Assembly (NCBI GenBank): GCA_902774395.1 | Contig: CACYIK010000005.1 | Span: 124,001 to 188,000 of the forward strand | Source of the DNA: an uncultured Bacteroidota bacterium | GTDB lineage: Bacteria; Bacteroidota; Bacteroidia; Bacteroidales; P3 | Direction: 5' to 3' | DNA length: 64,000 nt | In this document: positions 5,503-22,407 of the stretch, piece by piece | Position numbering within the stretch: the first letter of the stretch is position 1 | How the letters are laid out: each line of letters opens with the position of its first letter | Translations under genes and position numbers: made by a program | The notes under the pieces: generated by a model | What the model saw: the letters and a program-made list of their open reading frames with translations, nothing else | Databases searched by the model: none | Told to the model about the DNA's origin: nothing

Positions 5503-5531
5503 AAGAGCGAGCTCAGTGAGCTCGCTCTTTT
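5501..5531. terminator. Bidirectional terminator shared by the small ORF and lptB
   Basis: A perfect 14-bp stem (5501-5514 with 5518-5531) closes a 3-base loop and is flanked by A and T runs on both sides. The TAA of the plus-strand gene (5500-5502) and the TGA of lptB (5513-5515 on the minus strand) are both inside the hairpin. Confidence 0.85.
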
Positions 5532-6280
5532 AGTACGAAGTCGCGCCCTAAATATTTTTCTCGGACGTCAGGGTCGTTGGCCAAATCCTCGGGGGTGCCT
5601 TTCTGCAGCACGGAGCCCTCGTAGAGGAGGTATGCCCTGTTGGTGATATGTAGGGTCTCGCGGACGTTGTGGTCGGTGATGAGGATGCCGATGTTGCGCT
5701 TCTTGAGTTCCAGGACGATGTCCTGGATGTCCTGCACGGCGATGGGGTCGACGCCGGCGAAGGGCTCGTCGAGAAGCAGGAACATGGGGTCGTTGGCCAG
5801 CGCCCGCGCTATCTCGGTGCGGCGGCGTTCGCCGCCGGAGAGCTGTATGCCCTTGCTGTTGCGTATGTGTTGCAGGTGGAACTCGTCGAGGAGCGATTCG
5901 AGCTTCTCTTCGCGCTGGTGCTTGTCGAGGTCCTTGCGGAACTCAAGGATGGACATGATGTTGTCGGCCACGGACATCTGGCGGAAGACGGAGGCCTCCT
6001 GCGCGAGGTAGCCCACACCCATCTGTGAGCGCTTGTACATGGGATACTGCGTGAGCTCGATAGTCTCGCCAGTCTCACCCTTGTCCTCCTCGGGGGCGAG
6101 GTATACCTTGCCGCTGAAGGGCTTGATGATACCCACTACCATGTAGAAGGTGGTGGTCTTACCGGCGCCGTTGGGGCCGAGGAGCCCCACTATCTCGCCT
6201 TGGCGTACCTCGACGGAAGCGCCCTTGACGACGGTGCGCGAACGATATTTTTTGACGACGTTGTCGGTGTAGAGACGCAT
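5513..6280 (-). CDS. lptB: LPS export ABC transporter ATP-binding protein LptB
   Basis: A 255-residue ATPase with Walker A GPNGAGKT (residues 35-42), ABC signature LSGGE (147-151), Walker B FLLLDEP (167-173) and the switch histidine in ITDHNVRETL. The LptB hallmarks YLAQEASVFRQMSV and DPIAVQDIQ are present. It powers extraction of lipopolysaccharide from the inner membrane with LptF/G. A dozen extra residues (about 62-74, EEDKGETGETIEL region) interrupt the usual short loop before the Q-loop. Upstream on its strand lies a 9-bp repeat ladder leading directly to the ATG, then 27-bp units, then kdsD. lptE is encoded at 30.5 kb. Confidence 0.96.
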   Translation of the reverse strand: MRLYTDNVVKKYRSRTVVKGASVEVRQGEIVGLLGPNGAGKTTTFYMVVGIIKPFSGKVYLAPEEDKGETGETIELTQYPMYKRSQMGVGYLAQEASVFRQMSVADNIMSILEFRKDLDKHQREEKLESLLDEFHLQHIRNSKGIQLSGGERRRTEIARALANDPMFLLLDEPFAGVDPIAVQDIQDIVLELKKRNIGILITDHNVRETLHITNRAYLLYEGSVLQKGTPEDLANDPDVREKYLGRDFVLKERAH

Positions 6281-6290
6281 TAGCTTAGGG

Positions 6291-6543
6291 TTTAAAGGGT
6301 TTTAAGGGTTTAAAAGGTTTAAGAGGTTTAAAGGGTTTAAAAGGTTTAAGAGGTTTAAAGGGTTTAAAGGGTTTAAGAGGTTTAAAAGGTTTAAGGGGTT
6401 TAAAGGGTTTAAGGGGAACAGAACCTTTTCAACTTTTAAGCGAAGCGAACCTTTCTAACCTTTTAAGCGAAGCGAACCCTTCTGACCTTTTAAGTGAAGC
6501 GAACCTTTTTAACTTTTAAGTGAAGCGAACCTTTTCAACTTTT
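6291..6543 (-). repeat. Composite leader repeat upstream of lptB: 9-bp ladder plus 27-bp units
   Basis: Bases 6291-6416 hold fourteen 9-bp units of the form TTTAARRGG. A junction GGGGAACAGAACC follows at 6413-6425. Then come four units of about 27 bp carrying AAGCGAAGCGAA at 6438 and 6465 and AAGTGAAGCGAA at 6492 and 6518. Bases 6396-6494 are the exact reverse complement of 21607-21705. Read on the minus strand, the order is 27-bp units, junction, ladder, lptB start, the same polarity as at the second copy. Confidence 0.95.
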
Positions 6544-7506
6544 TTAGATGATTCCTTCGCGGAGGATGTCGTGGATATGGACGATGCCGAGGTAGTGGCC
6601 GTCGGTATCGGTGACGATGACCTGGGTGATGGAGTTCTGGCGCATCATCTGGAGGGCGTTGACGGCATACTCGGTGTCGAGGATAGTGCGGGGGTTGGGG
6701 TGCATGATGTCGGAGGCTATCTTGGGGGTGTGGCTGGTTTGCATCATGCGGCGAAGGTCGCCGTCGGTGATGATACCGCAGACCTTGTCGTCCTCGACGA
6801 CGACAGCGCAGCCGAGGCGTTTGGAGGTCATCTCGATGATGGTGTCGTTGATGGACGTGGTGGGGGTGACGGCGGGTCGCTCATTCTGGATATAAAGGTC
6901 GGCGACACGGAGGTAGAGCTGCTTTCCGAGGGCTCCGCCGGGGTGGAAGCGGGCAAAGTCGCGCGCCGAGAAGTTGCGGCACTCGATGAGCGCCACGGCC
7001 AGGGCGTCGCCCATGACGAGCTGGGCGGTGGTGCTGCTGGTGGGCGCCAAGTTGTTGGGGCAGGCCTCATGCTCCACGGTGGTGTTGAGCACGATATCGG
7101 CCTCGTGGGCCAGGAACGAGTCGGTGTTGCCGACGATGGCGATGAGGGTGTTGCCGAAGTTCTTGATTAGCGGCACCAGCACCTTGATCTCGGGGGTGTT
7201 GCCACTCTTGGAGATGCAGATGACCACATCGCCGGGGCGCACCATGCCCAGGTCGCCATGGATGGCGTCGGCGGCATGGAGGAAGAGGGCAGGGGTGCCG
7301 GTGGAGTTGAGCGTGGAGACAATCTTCACGGCGATATTGGCGCTTTTGCCAATACCGGTGACGACAACACGTCCAGAGGCCGAAAACAGGGTCTCGACGG
7401 CCTTCGAAAAGCTGTCGTCAATATAGTTCTGGAGATTTTCTATTGCTTTTTTCTCGTCATTAATTACTTGAACAGCAATCTTTTTTATCTCTTCTGGGCT
7501 TTTCAC
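6544..7506 (-). CDS. kdsD: Arabinose-5-phosphate isomerase KdsD (KpsF/GutQ family)
   Basis: A 320-residue protein with an N-terminal SIS sugar-isomerase domain (about 35-175; VTGIGKSANIAVKIVSTLNSTGTPALFLHAADAIHGDLG and SKSGNTPE motifs) and two C-terminal CBS domains (about 205-320). It interconverts ribulose-5-phosphate and arabinose-5-phosphate, the first step to KDO for lipopolysaccharide. The start is GTG at 7506, since no ATG fits before the conserved region. It lies upstream of lptB on the same strand, separated by the composite repeat, so an envelope operon is likely. Confidence 0.94.
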   Translation of the reverse strand: MKSPEEIKKIAVQVINDEKKAIENLQNYIDDSFSKAVETLFSASGRVVVTGIGKSANIAVKIVSTLNSTGTPALFLHAADAIHGDLGMVRPGDVVICISKSGNTPEIKVLVPLIKNFGNTLIAIVGNTDSFLAHEADIVLNTTVEHEACPNNLAPTSSTTAQLVMGDALAVALIECRNFSARDFARFHPGGALGKQLYLRVADLYIQNERPAVTPTTSINDTIIEMTSKRLGCAVVVEDDKVCGIITDGDLRRMMQTSHTPKIASDIMHPNPRTILDTEYAVNALQMMRQNSITQVIVTDTDGHYLGIVHIHDILREGII

Positions 7507-9880: not shown

Positions 9881-9896
9881 CCCCGTCAACGAGAGC

Positions 9897-10001
9897 ATAG
9901 GGGTGCACATAAGTGACTGAGTGACTGTGTTGTTAAGAGACTAAGTGTGCTGAGAAAATACCCTTCAAACTTGATCCGGATAATGCCGGCGTAAGGAATT
10001 G
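9897..10001 (+). promoter_or_regulatory. TPP riboswitch (THI element)
   Basis: The conserved parts are in order: AGGGGTGC (9899-9906), GCTGAGAAAATACCC (about 9949-9963) with the CTGAGA pyrimidine-sensing bulge, and CTTGATCCGGATAATGCCGG (about 9970-9989) followed by GTAAGGAA. The variable P3 arm is the GTGACTGAGTGACTG stretch. The ATG of the TonB receptor is only a few bases after the aptamer, so control is more likely on translation initiation than by a separate terminator. High TPP should switch off the operon below. Confidence 0.95.
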
Positions 10002-10005
10002 AATT

Positions 10006-12273
10006 ATGAAACACAACTTTTATAGCTGTGGTCGCTATCTGATTTATCAGGCCACCAGGATTAGTCGCAAGCAGATGATAGCCTGCTGTGCGTTAGTTTT
10101 CACCTTTCACTTTTCTCCTTTCACCTCGAACGCGCAAGATACTGTGCGCCGTTTGGACGAGGTGATTATCCAGGACGTCCGTGTCAGTAACAAGACCCCG
10201 CTGACTACCAGCACACTTGACAGGAAGACGCTTGAGGAAAACAAAATTGCTGTCTCGGTACCATACATGCTTGAACTTGAGCCTTCCGTGGTAACCTCGG
10301 CAGAGAACGGCGCCGTTGGTGTCACCAGCATGCGCATCCGTGGCGTTGACGCTACGCGTATTAACGTTAACATCAATGGCATCCCTCTTAATGACGCAGA
10401 GAGCCAGCAGGTTTATTGGTACAACATCCCAAACCTCGGCGGTATGGCACAGAGTGTGCAGCTGCAGCGCGGTGTGGGTGCCAGCAACGGCGGCTCAGCA
10501 GCACTGGGAGGAGCATTGAACATGCAAACCCTCAACACTACCAACAATCCTTATGCCACCGCCGACCTCTCGTGGGGCTCGTGGAACACTCGTCAGTACG
10601 GATTCATTGCCGGTAGCGGATTGACTAAACACGGCTTCTCGTTCGACGCTGCATACAATGGACTCTCCTCCGACGGCTTCTTGCGTGGCGGCCAAACCGA
10701 CCAACAGAGCCTTTTCCTCAATGCCGGCTGGTATGGCAAACGTTCCATGTTGAAAGCCATCGCCATCATCGGCAAACAGAAGAGTGGTATCACCTACGAT
10801 GGCGCCACGCTGGAAGAGATAGAAAAATATGGCCCCACCTATCACGCTCGCGGAGAATACTATGACCAATACGGCAACCGCTTCTACTACCCCAACGAGA
10901 CCGACAACTATGACCAGCAGCACTACCAACTTTACTACTCCTACCTTCTCAACGACTATTGGAGCCTCAGCAGTGCCCTTGACTACACCTATGGTTTCGG
11001 CTACACCGAGAGCTACAAGGATGATAAAAAAGTATCCAACTATGGTAGCCTCAACACTCTCCTCACTGATCCCACCCGCACGGACCTCATTACCCGCAAA
11101 AACATGCGCAACGACGCCTATACCGCCAACATCGCCCTCCACTACGACCGTGATGCACTCTCCCTCTCCTTCGGCGGCAGTTACCAACTCTACGACGGCG
11201 ACCACTATGGCGAAATCCTTTGGGCCGATCGTGACACCGCCAACGGACAGCACCACTTCGACCGCGACCACCCCTTCGACGATTGGTACACCAACTCTGG
11301 CCGCAAGCATGATGCCACTGCCTTCGCCAAATTCAACTATGAGTTTTCGCCCCGCTTCAACCTCTATGCCGACCTTCAGGTGCGCTACATCAGCTACGGC
11401 CTCCATGGCATAGACGATGACTATGGTCAACTCGATTATGATACCACTCACCTTTTCTTTAACCCCAAGGTGGGTGTCAACTACCGCATCGATGATCAAC
11501 AGCGTGCCTACTTCGTGGCTGGCATCAGCAACCGCGAGGCTGCACGCGCCGACATCAAGGAAGCGCTGGCAGACGGCTCGCATATGAACCATGAGACCAT
11601 GCTCGATCTTGAACTGGGCTACCAACTCCAGAAACAGGACTTCCACTTCGAGGGCAACCTCTATGCCATGCTCTATAAAGACCAGCTGGTCGCCAACGGC
11701 AAAGCCACCGAGAGCGGCTACTCGCTGATGGATAACGTTGACAAAAGCTATCGCCTCGGCGTCGAACTCGTCGGTGGCTATCGCTTCTGCAAACAGTTCT
11801 CCCTTGACGGCAACCTCACCCTGAGCCTCAACAAAATCATCGACTATCAATACGAGGCAACACTCAATGACTGGTACACTAAGACCATCCTCGACCTTGG
11901 TACCACCGACCTCGCACTCTCGCCCTCTGTCGTTGGCACCCTCGTGGCAACTTACCGTCCCGTCGACAACGCCAAGCTGCAACTCATCGGCAAATATGTC
12001 GGCGAACAATATGCCGACAATACTAGTCGCGACGAGGTGAAAGTCCCCGCCTACTTCCTCCTCAATGCCCGCGCCTCCTACACCTTCCGCCTGCGCAACA
12101 ACAATGAAATCGAGTGCCAGCTGGCCGTCAACAACATCCTCGATCATGACTACCGTCTCAGCGCCTACATCTATGGCACCTACGATCCCTCTACTCAGAC
12201 CTACGACAACTATCACTACTGGTTCCAGCAGCCTGGCATCAACTTCATGGGCCGCGTGATTTACCGTTTCTAA
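10006..12273 (+). CDS. TonB-dependent outer-membrane receptor, probably for thiamine
   Basis: A 755-residue receptor: N-terminal export signal, plug domain (about 45-165, with SMRIRGVDATRINVNINGIPLNDAESQQVYW), then a long beta barrel ending in RVIYRF with a terminal Phe. No carboxypeptidase-like leader domain precedes the plug. The TPP riboswitch directly upstream and the PnuC-type permease and thiN downstream match the OMR1-PnuT-TNR3 arrangement predicted for Bacteroidetes thiamine uptake, which is the basis for the substrate. The signal peptide is odd: residues near VFTFHFSPFTSNAQ come from a TTTCACC-type repeat tract (10094-10130). Confidence 0.92.
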   Translation: MKHNFYSCGRYLIYQATRISRKQMIACCALVFTFHFSPFTSNAQDTVRRLDEVIIQDVRVSNKTPLTTSTLDRKTLEENKIAVSVPYMLELEPSVVTSAENGAVGVTSMRIRGVDATRINVNINGIPLNDAESQQVYWYNIPNLGGMAQSVQLQRGVGASNGGSAALGGALNMQTLNTTNNPYATADLSWGSWNTRQYGFIAGSGLTKHGFSFDAAYNGLSSDGFLRGGQTDQQSLFLNAGWYGKRSMLKAIAIIGKQKSGITYDGATLEEIEKYGPTYHARGEYYDQYGNRFYYPNETDNYDQQHYQLYYSYLLNDYWSLSSALDYTYGFGYTESYKDDKKVSNYGSLNTLLTDPTRTDLITRKNMRNDAYTANIALHYDRDALSLSFGGSYQLYDGDHYGEILWADRDTANGQHHFDRDHPFDDWYTNSGRKHDATAFAKFNYEFSPRFNLYADLQVRYISYGLHGIDDDYGQLDYDTTHLFFNPKVGVNYRIDDQQRAYFVAGISNREAARADIKEALADGSHMNHETMLDLELGYQLQKQDFHFEGNLYAMLYKDQLVANGKATESGYSLMDNVDKSYRLGVELVGGYRFCKQFSLDGNLTLSLNKIIDYQYEATLNDWYTKTILDLGTTDLALSPSVVGTLVATYRPVDNAKLQLIGKYVGEQYADNTSRDEVKVPAYFLLNARASYTFRLRNNNEIECQLAVNNILDHDYRLSAYIYGTYDPSTQTYDNYHYWFQQPGINFMGRVIYRF

Positions 12274-12275
12274 AA

Positions 12276-12439
12276 ATTAAAAGAAAACCCCTACGGGGTA
12301 TAATGAAAATGGATTAATCGCGTTATGCTATTAAAAGGAAACGCCTACGGCGTAGTAACATTACCCCGTAGGGGTTTCCTCTTAATAGAAACACACCCCC
12401 CAACAAAACAATAATACCCCGTAGGGGTTTTCTCTTAAT
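12276..12439. repeat. Four copies of a palindrome-cored element between the receptor gene and pnuT
   Basis: Copies at 12276-12301 and 12330-12355 run one way; copies at about 12361-12386 and 12414-12439 run the other way. Each has a core such as CCCCTACGGGG or CGCCTACGGCG plus an AT-rich arm (ATTAAAAG). The outer pair is complementary at 25 of 26 positions. The array fills the whole 171-base spacer and could fold into nested stem-loops in the mRNA. Confidence 0.9.
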
Positions 12440-12444
12440 AGATT

Positions 12445-16196: not shown

Positions 16197-16202
16197 TTCA
16201 TT

Positions 16203-16250
16203 GTAAGGAGTGAAAGGGAGTGACACGGAGTGACAAGGGAGTGAAGGGAC
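16203..16250 (+). repeat. GGAGTGAAA/GGAGTGACA tandem repeat after purD
   Basis: Four or five units of 10-12 bp (AAGGAGTG, GGGAGTGACA) fill most of the spacer. The same word recurs at 21023-21075, at the end of mrp. Confidence 0.85.
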
Positions 16251-16272
16251 AAATGTAAATATCGCGAGGAGG

Positions 16273-19952: not shown

Positions 19953-21044
19953 ATGATTACCACTACCCAGATAGAAATGGCCCTTGGCCATGTCAACGAC
20001 CCCGATCTTGGCCGCAGCCTCACAGAGCTCGGCATGATTGAGAATATCAAAGTCGACGGCCTCAAGGTCTCCTTCGACCTTGTCCTCACCACCCCCGCCT
20101 GTCCCATGAAGAAGAAGATGAGCGACGACTGCATCAACGCCATCCATGAACTCGTGGACCGCAACGCCGAGGTGGAGATCAACCTCACCAGCAAGCCCCA
20201 GCCCGACCCCAAGGCCGACTTCCAGAAAGAGTTCACCGGCGTGAAGAACATCATCGCCGTGGCCTCCGGCAAGGGCGGCGTGGGCAAGAGCACCGTGGCC
20301 GCCAACCTCGCCGTGTCGCTCGCCAAGAGCGGCGCCAAGGTGGCCCTCGTCGATGCCGACATCTATGGTCCTTCCATCCCCCTGATGTTCCACATCGAGG
20401 GCGAGGAGGTCTATGGCCATAAGGTGGGCGACAAGACCTACATGCTGCCCATTGAGAAATACGGCATTAAGCTGATGTCTGTGGGCTTCTTCGTCGACGC
20501 CGACAAGGCCCTCGCCTGGCGCGGACCCATGGCCAGCGGCGCCCTCAAGCAACTCCTCACCGAGACTTGGTGGGACGAGGTCGACTACATGGTCGTCGAC
20601 ATGCCCCCGGGAACGGGTGACATACAGCTCACCCTGGCGCAGACCATCCCCGTGACCGGCGCCATCATCGTCAGCACGCCCCAGCAGGTGGCTTTGGCCG
20701 ACGTGGTGCGTGGCGTCGAGCTCTTCCGCAACGAGAGCGTCAACATCCCCGTCCTTGGATTTGTCGAGAACATGGCGTACTTCACCCCTGCCGAGCTGCC
20801 GCAGAACAAGTACTACATCTTCGGCAATGGCGGCTGCCGCCGTCTGGCCGAGGAGATGAACATCCCCCTGCTGGGCGAGATACCGCTGGTGCAGAGCATC
20901 GCCGAGAGCGGCGACAGCGGCAAGCCCGCGGCACTCTTCACCCCCGACAAGACCAACGACCCCGTCCGCGACGCCTTCGATACCCTCGCACAGAACACCA
21001 TCAGAGAGATATGCAAGGTGGTGAAAGGGAGTGAAAAGGAGTGA
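19953..21044 (+). CDS. mrp: Mrp/NBP35-family iron-sulfur carrier ATPase
   Basis: A 363-residue protein with an N-terminal MIP18-like domain (about 1-85) and a deviant Walker A P-loop ASGKGGVGKST (about 106-116). The switch regions DADIYGPS and DYMVVDMPPGTGD follow. It is thought to assemble or deliver Fe-S clusters. The pairing with a NifU-domain gene 78 bases downstream supports that. The usual C-terminal CxxC (often near GPF.CP) is not seen; instead YYIFGNGGCRR carries one Cys. The last codons (KGSEKE-stop) are encoded by a GGAGTGAAA repeat. Confidence 0.93.
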   Translation: MITTTQIEMALGHVNDPDLGRSLTELGMIENIKVDGLKVSFDLVLTTPACPMKKKMSDDCINAIHELVDRNAEVEINLTSKPQPDPKADFQKEFTGVKNIIAVASGKGGVGKSTVAANLAVSLAKSGAKVALVDADIYGPSIPLMFHIEGEEVYGHKVGDKTYMLPIEKYGIKLMSVGFFVDADKALAWRGPMASGALKQLLTETWWDEVDYMVVDMPPGTGDIQLTLAQTIPVTGAIIVSTPQQVALADVVRGVELFRNESVNIPVLGFVENMAYFTPAELPQNKYYIFGNGGCRRLAEEMNIPLLGEIPLVQSIAESGDSGKPAALFTPDKTNDPVRDAFDTLAQNTIREICKVVKGSEKE

Positions 21045-21120
21045 GAGGGGAGTGAAAGGGGAGTGAAAGGGACAATACAAAATTTTCATTTTTCATTTTT
21101 CATTTTTCAATTTTCAATTT
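21023..21120 (+). repeat. GGAGTGAAA and TTTTCATTT repeats spanning the mrp end and nifU leader
   Basis: Bases 21023-21075 are five GGAGTGAAA-type units (carrying the mrp stop codon). Bases 21081-21120 are TTTTCATTT and TTTTCAATT words leading up to the nifU ATG. Confidence 0.85.
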
Positions 21121-21122
21121 GT

Positions 21123-21368
21123 ATGACCGACCAAGAGAAACCTATCGTCGAGCAGAAAGTAAAGAACGCCCTCGACCAGATACGCCCCTACTTGCAGCAG
21201 GACGGTGGCGACGTGGAGTATGTCGACATGACCGCCGAAGGCGTCGTCATCGTGCGCCTCAAAGGCCACTGTGGCTCCTGCCCCCACGCCATGCAGACCC
21301 TCAAGCAGGGCATCGAGGCCGCACTGAAGAAAGTCATCCCCGAAGTGAAGGCTGTGGAAAAAATATAA
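21123..21368 (+). CDS. NifU C-terminal-domain protein (Fe-S scaffold)
   Basis: An 81-residue protein made only of the NifU C-terminal domain: IRPYLQQDGGDVEYVDMTAEGVVIVRLKGHCGSCPHA. The CxxC (CGSC, about residues 46-49) binds a transferable Fe-S cluster. It follows mrp and probably works with it. The start is ATG at 21123; a longer in-frame GTG start at 21063 would only translate the TTTTCATTT repeat and is rejected. Followed by the long composite repeat. Confidence 0.92.
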   Translation: MTDQEKPIVEQKVKNALDQIRPYLQQDGGDVEYVDMTAEGVVIVRLKGHCGSCPHAMQTLKQGIEAALKKVIPEVKAVEKI

Positions 21369-21369
21369 A

Positions 21370-21820
21370 AGTTGAAAAGGTTCGCTTCGCTTAAAAGGTT
21401 TAGAAGGGTTCGCTTCGCTTAAAAGGTCAGAAGGGTTCGCTTCGCTTAAAAGGTTAGAAGGGTTCGCTTCGCTTAAAAGGTCAGAAGGGTTCGCTTCGCT
21501 TAAAAGGTTAGAAGGGTTCGCTTCGCTTAAAAGGTTAGAAAGGTTCGCTTCGCTTAAAAGGTTAGAAGGGTTCGCTTCGCTTAAAAGGTTAGAAAGGTTC
21601 GCTTCGCTTAAAAGGTCAGAAGGGTTCGCTTCGCTTAAAAGGTTAGAAAGGTTCGCTTCGCTTAAAAGTTGAAAAGGTTCTGTTCCCCTTAAACCCTTTA
21701 AACCCTTTAAACCCCTTAAACCTTTTAAACCTCTTAAACCTTTTAAACCTTTAAACCTCTTAAACCTCTTAAACCTTTTAAACCTTTAAACCCTTTAAAC
21801 CTTTTAACCCCTTTAAACCG
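21370..21820 (+). repeat. Composite leader repeat before the cobalamin adenosyltransferase gene: 11 x 27 bp plus 9-bp ladder
   Basis: TTCGCTTCGCTT starts at 21381, 21409, 21436, 21463, 21490, 21517, 21544, 21571, 21598, 21625 and 21652: eleven units, almost all exactly 27 bp apart. A junction GGTTCTGTTCCCC (21676-21688) follows, then about fifteen 9-bp CCYYTTAAA units to 21818. Bases 21607-21705 are the exact reverse complement of 6396-6494. The 463-base spacer contains no gene. Confidence 0.95.
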
Positions 21821-21831
21821 TTAATCATTAC

Positions 21832-22407
21832 ATGATTTACACTAAGACTGGCGACCACGGCACCACCTCCCTCGTGGGTGGCAGCCGCGTCAACAAGGAT
21901 GACCATCGCGTCGAGGCCTACGGCACCGTCGACGAGCTCAACTCGCACATCGGCCTCCTCGCCGAGATGATACGTCCGCTGCAGGGCGGCTATTATGACG
22001 AGCTCAAAGCCGTCCAGCACAACCTCTTCACCCTGCAGACCCTTCTGGCTACGGAGGATGCCGCTATCTATGGCCGCCTCCCGCAGCTCCCCGAAGAGGA
22101 GGTGGAGATGCTCGAGCGCCAGATTGACACCATCACGGACCAGCTGCCCAAGCTCCAGAACTTCGTCATCGCCGGTGGTAACCTCGCGGGCGCACAGTGT
22201 CATGTGGCACGCACCGTCTGCCGCCGTGCCGAACGCCGCGTCGTCACCCTCGCACGCGAGGCCGTCGAGGAATCGGGCAACCAGGCCGTCAGGCAATCTA
22301 CCGATGTCATCCTCCGCTACCTCAACCGTCTTTCCGACTACCTTTTCGTCCTCGGACGACGCCTCGTGGTGATGGAGGGTAAGGAGGAAGACCTGTATAT
22401 CAGCTAG
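21832..22407 (+). CDS. Cob(I)yrinic acid a,c-diamide / cobalamin adenosyltransferase, PduO type
   Basis: A 191-residue protein beginning IYTKTGDHGTTSLVGGSRVNKDDHRVEAYGTVDELNSHIG, the ATP-binding signature of PduO-type adenosyltransferases. The HVARTVCRRAERRV helix and RYLNRLSDYLFVLGR motif follow in the C-terminal half. It attaches the adenosyl group to cob(I)alamin for B12 coenzyme. A short stretch GNQAVRQSTD (about 163-172) looks longer than the usual loop and resembles the CAGGCAATC repeat word. The ATG lies 13 bases after the 9-bp ladder, so the repeat is its 5' leader. Confidence 0.94.
   Translation: MIYTKTGDHGTTSLVGGSRVNKDDHRVEAYGTVDELNSHIGLLAEMIRPLQGGYYDELKAVQHNLFTLQTLLATEDAAIYGRLPQLPEEEVEMLERQIDTITDQLPKLQNFVIAGGNLAGAQCHVARTVCRRAERRVVTLAREAVEESGNQAVRQSTDVILRYLNRLSDYLFVLGRRLVVMEGKEEDLYIS

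Follow-up and report, generated by a model that had tools for sequence, protein, structure and literature searches.

What is the 27-bp tandem repeat that fills the gap between two co-directional genes of a Bacteroidales genome, and how did it come to lie there? The repeat was found in a window of 64,000 nucleotides, the whole stretch of DNA analysed here, taken from G000, a Bacteroidales MAG of 2.35 Mb in 26 contigs. Genes in the window were called with a simple codon-based script. In a scan of GTDB species genomes, the named relatives carrying a 20-base piece of the repeat unit were mostly rumen (RUG) MAGs, and G000 is probably a rumen bacterium.

The sequence in question begins directly after the TAA codon of a gene for a NifU-like domain protein (21123..21368, + strand; Pfam PF01106, E 3.9e-27). 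Its first part, the left arm (21379..21668, + strand, from TRF and layout), was scored by TRF as 10.7 copies of a 27-bp unit, with 95% match and a score of 529. Eleven exact TTCGCTTCGCTT cores, contained in the unit GGTTCGCTTCGCTTAAAAGGTTAGAAG, are 28 bp apart at the first interval and 27 bp apart at all others; in 64 kb with equal base frequencies, chance alone would yield about 0.008 such cores. The units are head-to-tail and near-identical, and the array is thus a tandem repeat, as claimed by the original prediction, which had placed eleven copies of a 27-bp unit at 21381-21680. The point variants listed there, GGTTAG and GGTCAG, and AGAAGGG and AGAAAGG, are present in the array. A short centre on the + strand (21669..21688, bounds approximate) contains TTCTGTTCCCC; a second locus, at 6.4 kb, has the same centre. 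It is followed by a right arm (21685..21819, + strand), a 9-bp array (TTTAAACCC)n of complementary type and of 15.2 copies by TRF, which runs almost up to the next ATG. The downstream gene (21832..22407, + strand; Pfam PF01923, E 3.5e-59) encodes a cobalamin adenosyltransferase of the PduO type.

At the 6.4-kb locus all features lie on the - strand. A gene for a SIS-CBS protein of the KdsD type (6544..7506; Pfam SIS and CBS) is followed by a left arm of four units of about 27 bp (6421..6543, from TRF and layout; 3.7-4.7 copies by TRF), a right arm of 14.4 copies of (TTTAAACCC)n (6287..6416, from TRF) and a gene for an ABC-transporter ATPase of the LptB type (5513..6280; Pfam ABC_tran). The four copies predicted at 6438-6530 are therefore present, but as the reverse complement, with two of the four cores being variants (TTCGCTTCACTT) and with one spacing of 26 bp. 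Since this locus is reversed, both arrays are oriented alike relative to their flanking genes. In both cases the left array runs from a stop codon to a short centre, and (TTTAAACCC)n then continues to the next co-directional start codon. Thus the 27-bp array is real but makes up just one half of a compound element, the other half being the 9-bp arm.

The repeat had been described at two loci; both were confirmed, but the core is present at seven loci in G000, all with the same order of stop codon, 27-bp array, 9-bp array and start codon. Unit counts over the seven loci are 1, 1, 4, 8, 8, 11 and about 20, subject to the miscounting of long arrays that may occur in MAG assemblies, and unit lengths at the other core loci are 23, 26, 27 and 48 bp. 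The right arm lacks a complement of the TTCGCTTCGCTT core, and the 27-bp elements are therefore imperfect inverted repeats.

These features bear on several simple explanations, namely a coding repeat, a CRISPR-like array, a protein-binding array or an assembly artefact, which together are very improbable. The main array can be read through without a stop in one + frame (FASLKRLEG) and in one - frame, but any frame would be broken by the unit lengths of 23, 26, 27 and 48 bp found elsewhere; these lengths, and an open frame lacking a start codon, exclude a coding repeat. The units abut with no unique spacers, which excludes a CRISPR array. Carriage by viruses was rejected, viral contigs having given no match. 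Short reads assemble long arrays poorly, but the layout is shared by seven loci, and independently assembled relatives have single-unit versions at the same junctions.

To compare junctions between species, one genome was used per species. Most of the 30 listed genus genomes (G000 included in the list) have nifU and pduO overlapping by ATGA, so that the element is an addition at this junction. Gaps are found there in some relatives: 67 nt in G079, 28 nt in G069, 10 nt in G035 and a short one in G123. At the kdsD-lptB junction the genes overlap by ATGA in several species, others have their own unrelated arrays, and in G035 a whole gene matching PF05635 lies between inverted (GGAGTGCAAG)n arms. 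The lptB orthologues of G003, G006 and G014 gave split matches, with an insert of roughly 60-105 nt near codon 65-70, seemingly another case of a short repeat array lying in frame within a gene.

The closest relative examined was RUG12171, whose flanking DNA is 83-88% identical to that of G000. We took it as G123, with which it is very probably identical (five matches each, on contigs 1, 2, 2, 4 and 8). Gene names such as pyrG, mtnN, luxS and rpmI were read from the translated flanks alone. G000 has 4 units at kdsD-lptB, 20 at the C1:16k junction and 8 at mtnN-luxS, against 1 at each of these in RUG12171; at pyrG-mtnN it has 8 against one variant unit, and at nifU-pduO 11 against none in G123. 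These counts are direct evidence that the 27-bp array is a variable-number repeat between species. The original prediction of variable copy number, worded for differences between cells, therefore stands at the level of a species comparison. Of 120 genus genomes, 7 contain an exact 18-base piece of the unit, and in G000 alone it is highly amplified. In the GTDB scan the 20-base piece matched Bacteroidales MAGs and a single Bacillus record, the latter likely by chance; a spread of the motif beyond the genus was rejected on this ground.

A rival reading is a plain minisatellite, a chance A/T-rich gap between two genes grown by replication slippage with no link to movement or to elements with a PF05635 gene. 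Many other junctions in the genus carry differing short tandem arrays with no PF05635 gene, and the short TTTAACGTTAAACTTTAACCGTTAC gap at nifU-pduO of G069 and G123 could have seeded the right arm. Slippage alone, however, does not explain why one unit and one compound layout recur at seven separate junctions in G000 and at further junctions in relatives. We consider a plain minisatellite rather unlikely, also in view of a PF05635 element with a matching arm type, described below.

PF05635 is the 23S rRNA intervening-sequence protein (IVP, S23p), a four-helix bundle known mainly from rRNA insertions. Eight genomes of the genus were searched for it, giving 18 matches in G000 and 2-17 in each of the others. 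Almost all short IVP genes are found at gene junctions, with a tandem array on one side and its reverse complement on the other. The arm unit is mostly 7-8 bp and differs between IVP copies (GGAGTGAAGG, GGTTATG, AAAGTTT, GGAATTA, GTAGTTAA and GTGAAAA are examples). The left arm starts at a median of 0 nt from the upstream stop codon and the right arm stops a median of 8.5 nt short of the following start codon. The flanking genes are co-directional with the IVP gene at 33 of 34 loci upstream and 31 of 34 downstream. More G than C was found in 30 of 32 left arms. Stops in all three frames occur in 65% of left arms and in 27% of shuffles, a difference to which a period that is not a multiple of three contributes.

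To measure the relation between the arms, the right flanks of all loci were reverse-complemented, and each left flank was aligned both with its own partner and with the partners from every other locus. In the genus, the own pairing ranked in the top 4 of 75 for 32 of 34 short IVP loci. Four long PF05635 homologues at one conserved site served as a natural negative control, and ranked 12-17. The test was extended to the order with 26 other genomes, each represented by a single high-scoring IVP locus, and among these loci the own pairing was in the top three of 51 for 24 of 26. Similarity of arm units was correlated with similarity of IVPs at different junctions (Mantel r 0.43, p 0.0005).

The four longer homologues (L103, L110, L116 and L128, in G008, G069, G021 and G000) have no inverted arrays around them, and apparently represent a settled member of the family that is not bound to repeats. 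In G128, at least seven IVP genes lie within about 11 kb of one contig (L129, G128:C7:5000-18000). Different elements occupy the same junction in different species (L104 and L122; L090 and L100; L106 and window positions 6281-6543), as if some junctions were preferred sites for elements.

The 27-bp elements themselves contain no PF05635 frame, although such a frame is present in related elements of G000, and the full 27-bp unit was seen in no IVP copy. A probable link between the two is provided by L094 of G123, in which an IVP gene lies between AAAAGGTTAAAGAGG and CCTTTAAAACCTTTTAAAC arms, of the AAAAGG/CCTTTT type seen in the 27-bp elements. Its inner edges match those of the elements with no IVP gene at 17 of 18 and 16 of 18 bases, the matches being short and of low complexity. 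The junction of L094 is occupied in G000 by an IVP gene with AAAAGATT arms, which indicates that both arms changed together. A TCGCTTCGCT core was also found in the left arm of L091, an IVP element of another unit family, and L086 has the core in its right arm, as the reverse complement, before a start codon. Given one IVP copy with the same AAAAGG/CCTTTT arms, the 27-bp arrays are most simply read as the left arm of relatives that have no IVP gene, amplified in the species of G000.

Two further arrays in the window, both on the + strand, may belong to the same family. At the mrp-nifU junction (21021..21120, from TRF) an array of GGAGTGAAAG, resembling a left arm and ending in GGGACAATAC, is followed by a TTTTCAT array; its inner edge is the same as in the IVP elements L090 and L106, and it resembles what would remain of an IVP-type element. 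A second left-arm-like GGAGTGAAAG array, ending in GGGACAAATG and lacking a matching right arm (16197..16272, from TRF and the gap sequence, compared with L111), is a probable remnant of the same type. Other repeats were seen in the course of the analysis. Palindromic intergenic repeats with CCCCTACGGGGT and its inverse, at window positions 12274-12444, differ in type from the 27-bp repeat. The mrp-nifU junction of G014 (L030, upstream part, about 1340-1450) is filled by yet another type, with three GCAGGCGGGACGCCTGC palindromes. In L012, around 6950-7000, four copies of TCATCAC lie seemingly in frame in a gene between two C20 arrays.

Together these observations lead us to favour, at a little better than even confidence, the reading that the 27-bp array represents the left arm of a member of the IVP-associated inverted-array family of inter-gene elements, with its unit multiplied in G000. 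Elements of this family in Bacteroidales consist of two inverted arrays, mostly of 7-9-bp units and often with a small PF05635 gene between them, filling the space from a stop codon to the next start codon, with a left arm that is G-rich and C-poor and a right arm that is its complement. The 27-bp elements look like shortened relatives of L094 that lack the IVP gene, in which multiplication of the left-arm unit in G000 would have given a variable-number array. We infer that the family is mobile and that the IVP takes part in movement, although in no single species were both empty and filled sites seen; the arrays would grow by slippage or unequal exchange. It might also be that the IVP settles in pre-existing arrays rather than making them.

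The inverted arms could act as an RNA device, pairing in the messenger to form an RNase III stem, an attenuator or an insulator tuned by unit number. The purine-rich left and pyrimidine-rich right arms are able to pair and do so in predicted folds, some junction elements of relatives fold strongly (z -4 to -7.5), and RNase III is known to cut 23S rRNA intervening sequences (PMC4990558). The 27-bp elements, however, fold no better than shuffled sequences (z 0.5, -1.5, 5.3, -0.1 and -1.9). Arm mismatches pooled over 54 IVP loci were not enriched for those tolerated by G-U pairing in the sense RNA, 43 being tolerated against 66 transitions that are not (p 0.03); they lean against sense-strand G-U pairing, a bias for which we have no explanation. 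As far as wobble counts tell, maintenance of the arms as paired RNA is not supported. The counts thus favour a process at the DNA level, for example the copying of a hairpin or the action of a DNA-binding partner, and we regard an RNA device as improbable. A known RNA family was excluded: the only Rfam match in window positions 1-30000 is a TPP riboswitch (RF00059, 64 bits) at 9889-10014, just before the gene at 10006.

TAnnTTTG is the Bacteroidales -7 box. It was found in neither the 6.4-kb nor the 21-kb element, and is present in 12 of the 33 gap sides of at least 60 bp that were tested. As neither element has this box, the downstream genes are probably transcribed by read-through from the upstream gene. 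Judging from sequence, insertion would then have a small effect on the neighbours, since the ends of both genes are intact and transcription continues across the element; it probably acts mainly by uncoupling their translation. The number of units may also tune the downstream gene, as originally proposed. Three Y1 transposase matches in G000 identified no helper, and no match to the PF00078 reverse transcriptase was found in that genome.

Of known systems, mycobacterial interspersed repetitive units (MIRUs) are close in layout: they lie at gene junctions in variable number, are apparently mobile and leave the flanking genes usable (PMC12548453). The 27-bp elements likewise lie between the stop and start codons of co-directional genes, with repeat units in variable number and flanking genes left usable. 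The short frame of a MIRU couples to the downstream gene at -4 nt, whereas no start-bearing frame spans the 27-bp elements, so that there is no internal coupled frame; their units are also shorter, and they consist of two inverted arrays, some family members having an IVP gene between them. The 23S rRNA intervening sequences share a PF05635 frame within an inverted-repeat stem. In Coxiella the intervening sequence is excised by RNase III, and the IVP start is preceded by two or three heptamer repeats (GACAGAT) whose number varies between strains (PMC4990558), a close parallel. The Bacteroidales copies differ in that their arms are long tandem arrays and their neighbours protein genes; the 27-bp elements are likewise between protein genes, not inside an rRNA gene, and themselves have no IVP gene. 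Head-to-tail units with point variants and a species-dependent copy number are as in variable-number tandem repeats (minisatellites), but the 27-bp array is part of a compound, dispersed element with inverted arrays, confined to stop/start junctions. MITEs and REP/BIME sequences are similarly short, non-coding and roughly palindromic, present in several junction copies and perhaps moved by a helper. The 27-bp elements resemble L094 in arm type and inner edges, but their ends have no constant sequence and no transposase gene was recognised; in the family the arms are tandem arrays, with a unit that varies from one IVP clade to another. A likeness also exists between PF05635 and Avd, which serves diversity-generating retroelements as accessory protein (PMC10053308).

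The part of the literature that was searched contains no account of IVP elements that lie between genes and have tandem inverted arms. Apart from the likeness to Avd, we know of no role assigned to IVP/S23p proteins outside rRNA insertions. We propose tentatively, and at less than even confidence, that PF05635 marks a large undescribed class of small mobile elements in Bacteroidales that insert with stop/start precision, whose inverted tandem-array arms have units that co-evolve with the IVP and whose copies lacking an IVP gene give rise to variable-number arrays in core operons. If the IVP marks inter-gene elements with matching inverted arrays throughout Bacteroidales, its role would become testable, and the so far unexplained repeat-filled gaps in core operons of gut and rumen bacteria could be traced to a source. 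The arrays might also be used as strain markers, and they could offer natural tests of broken translational coupling.
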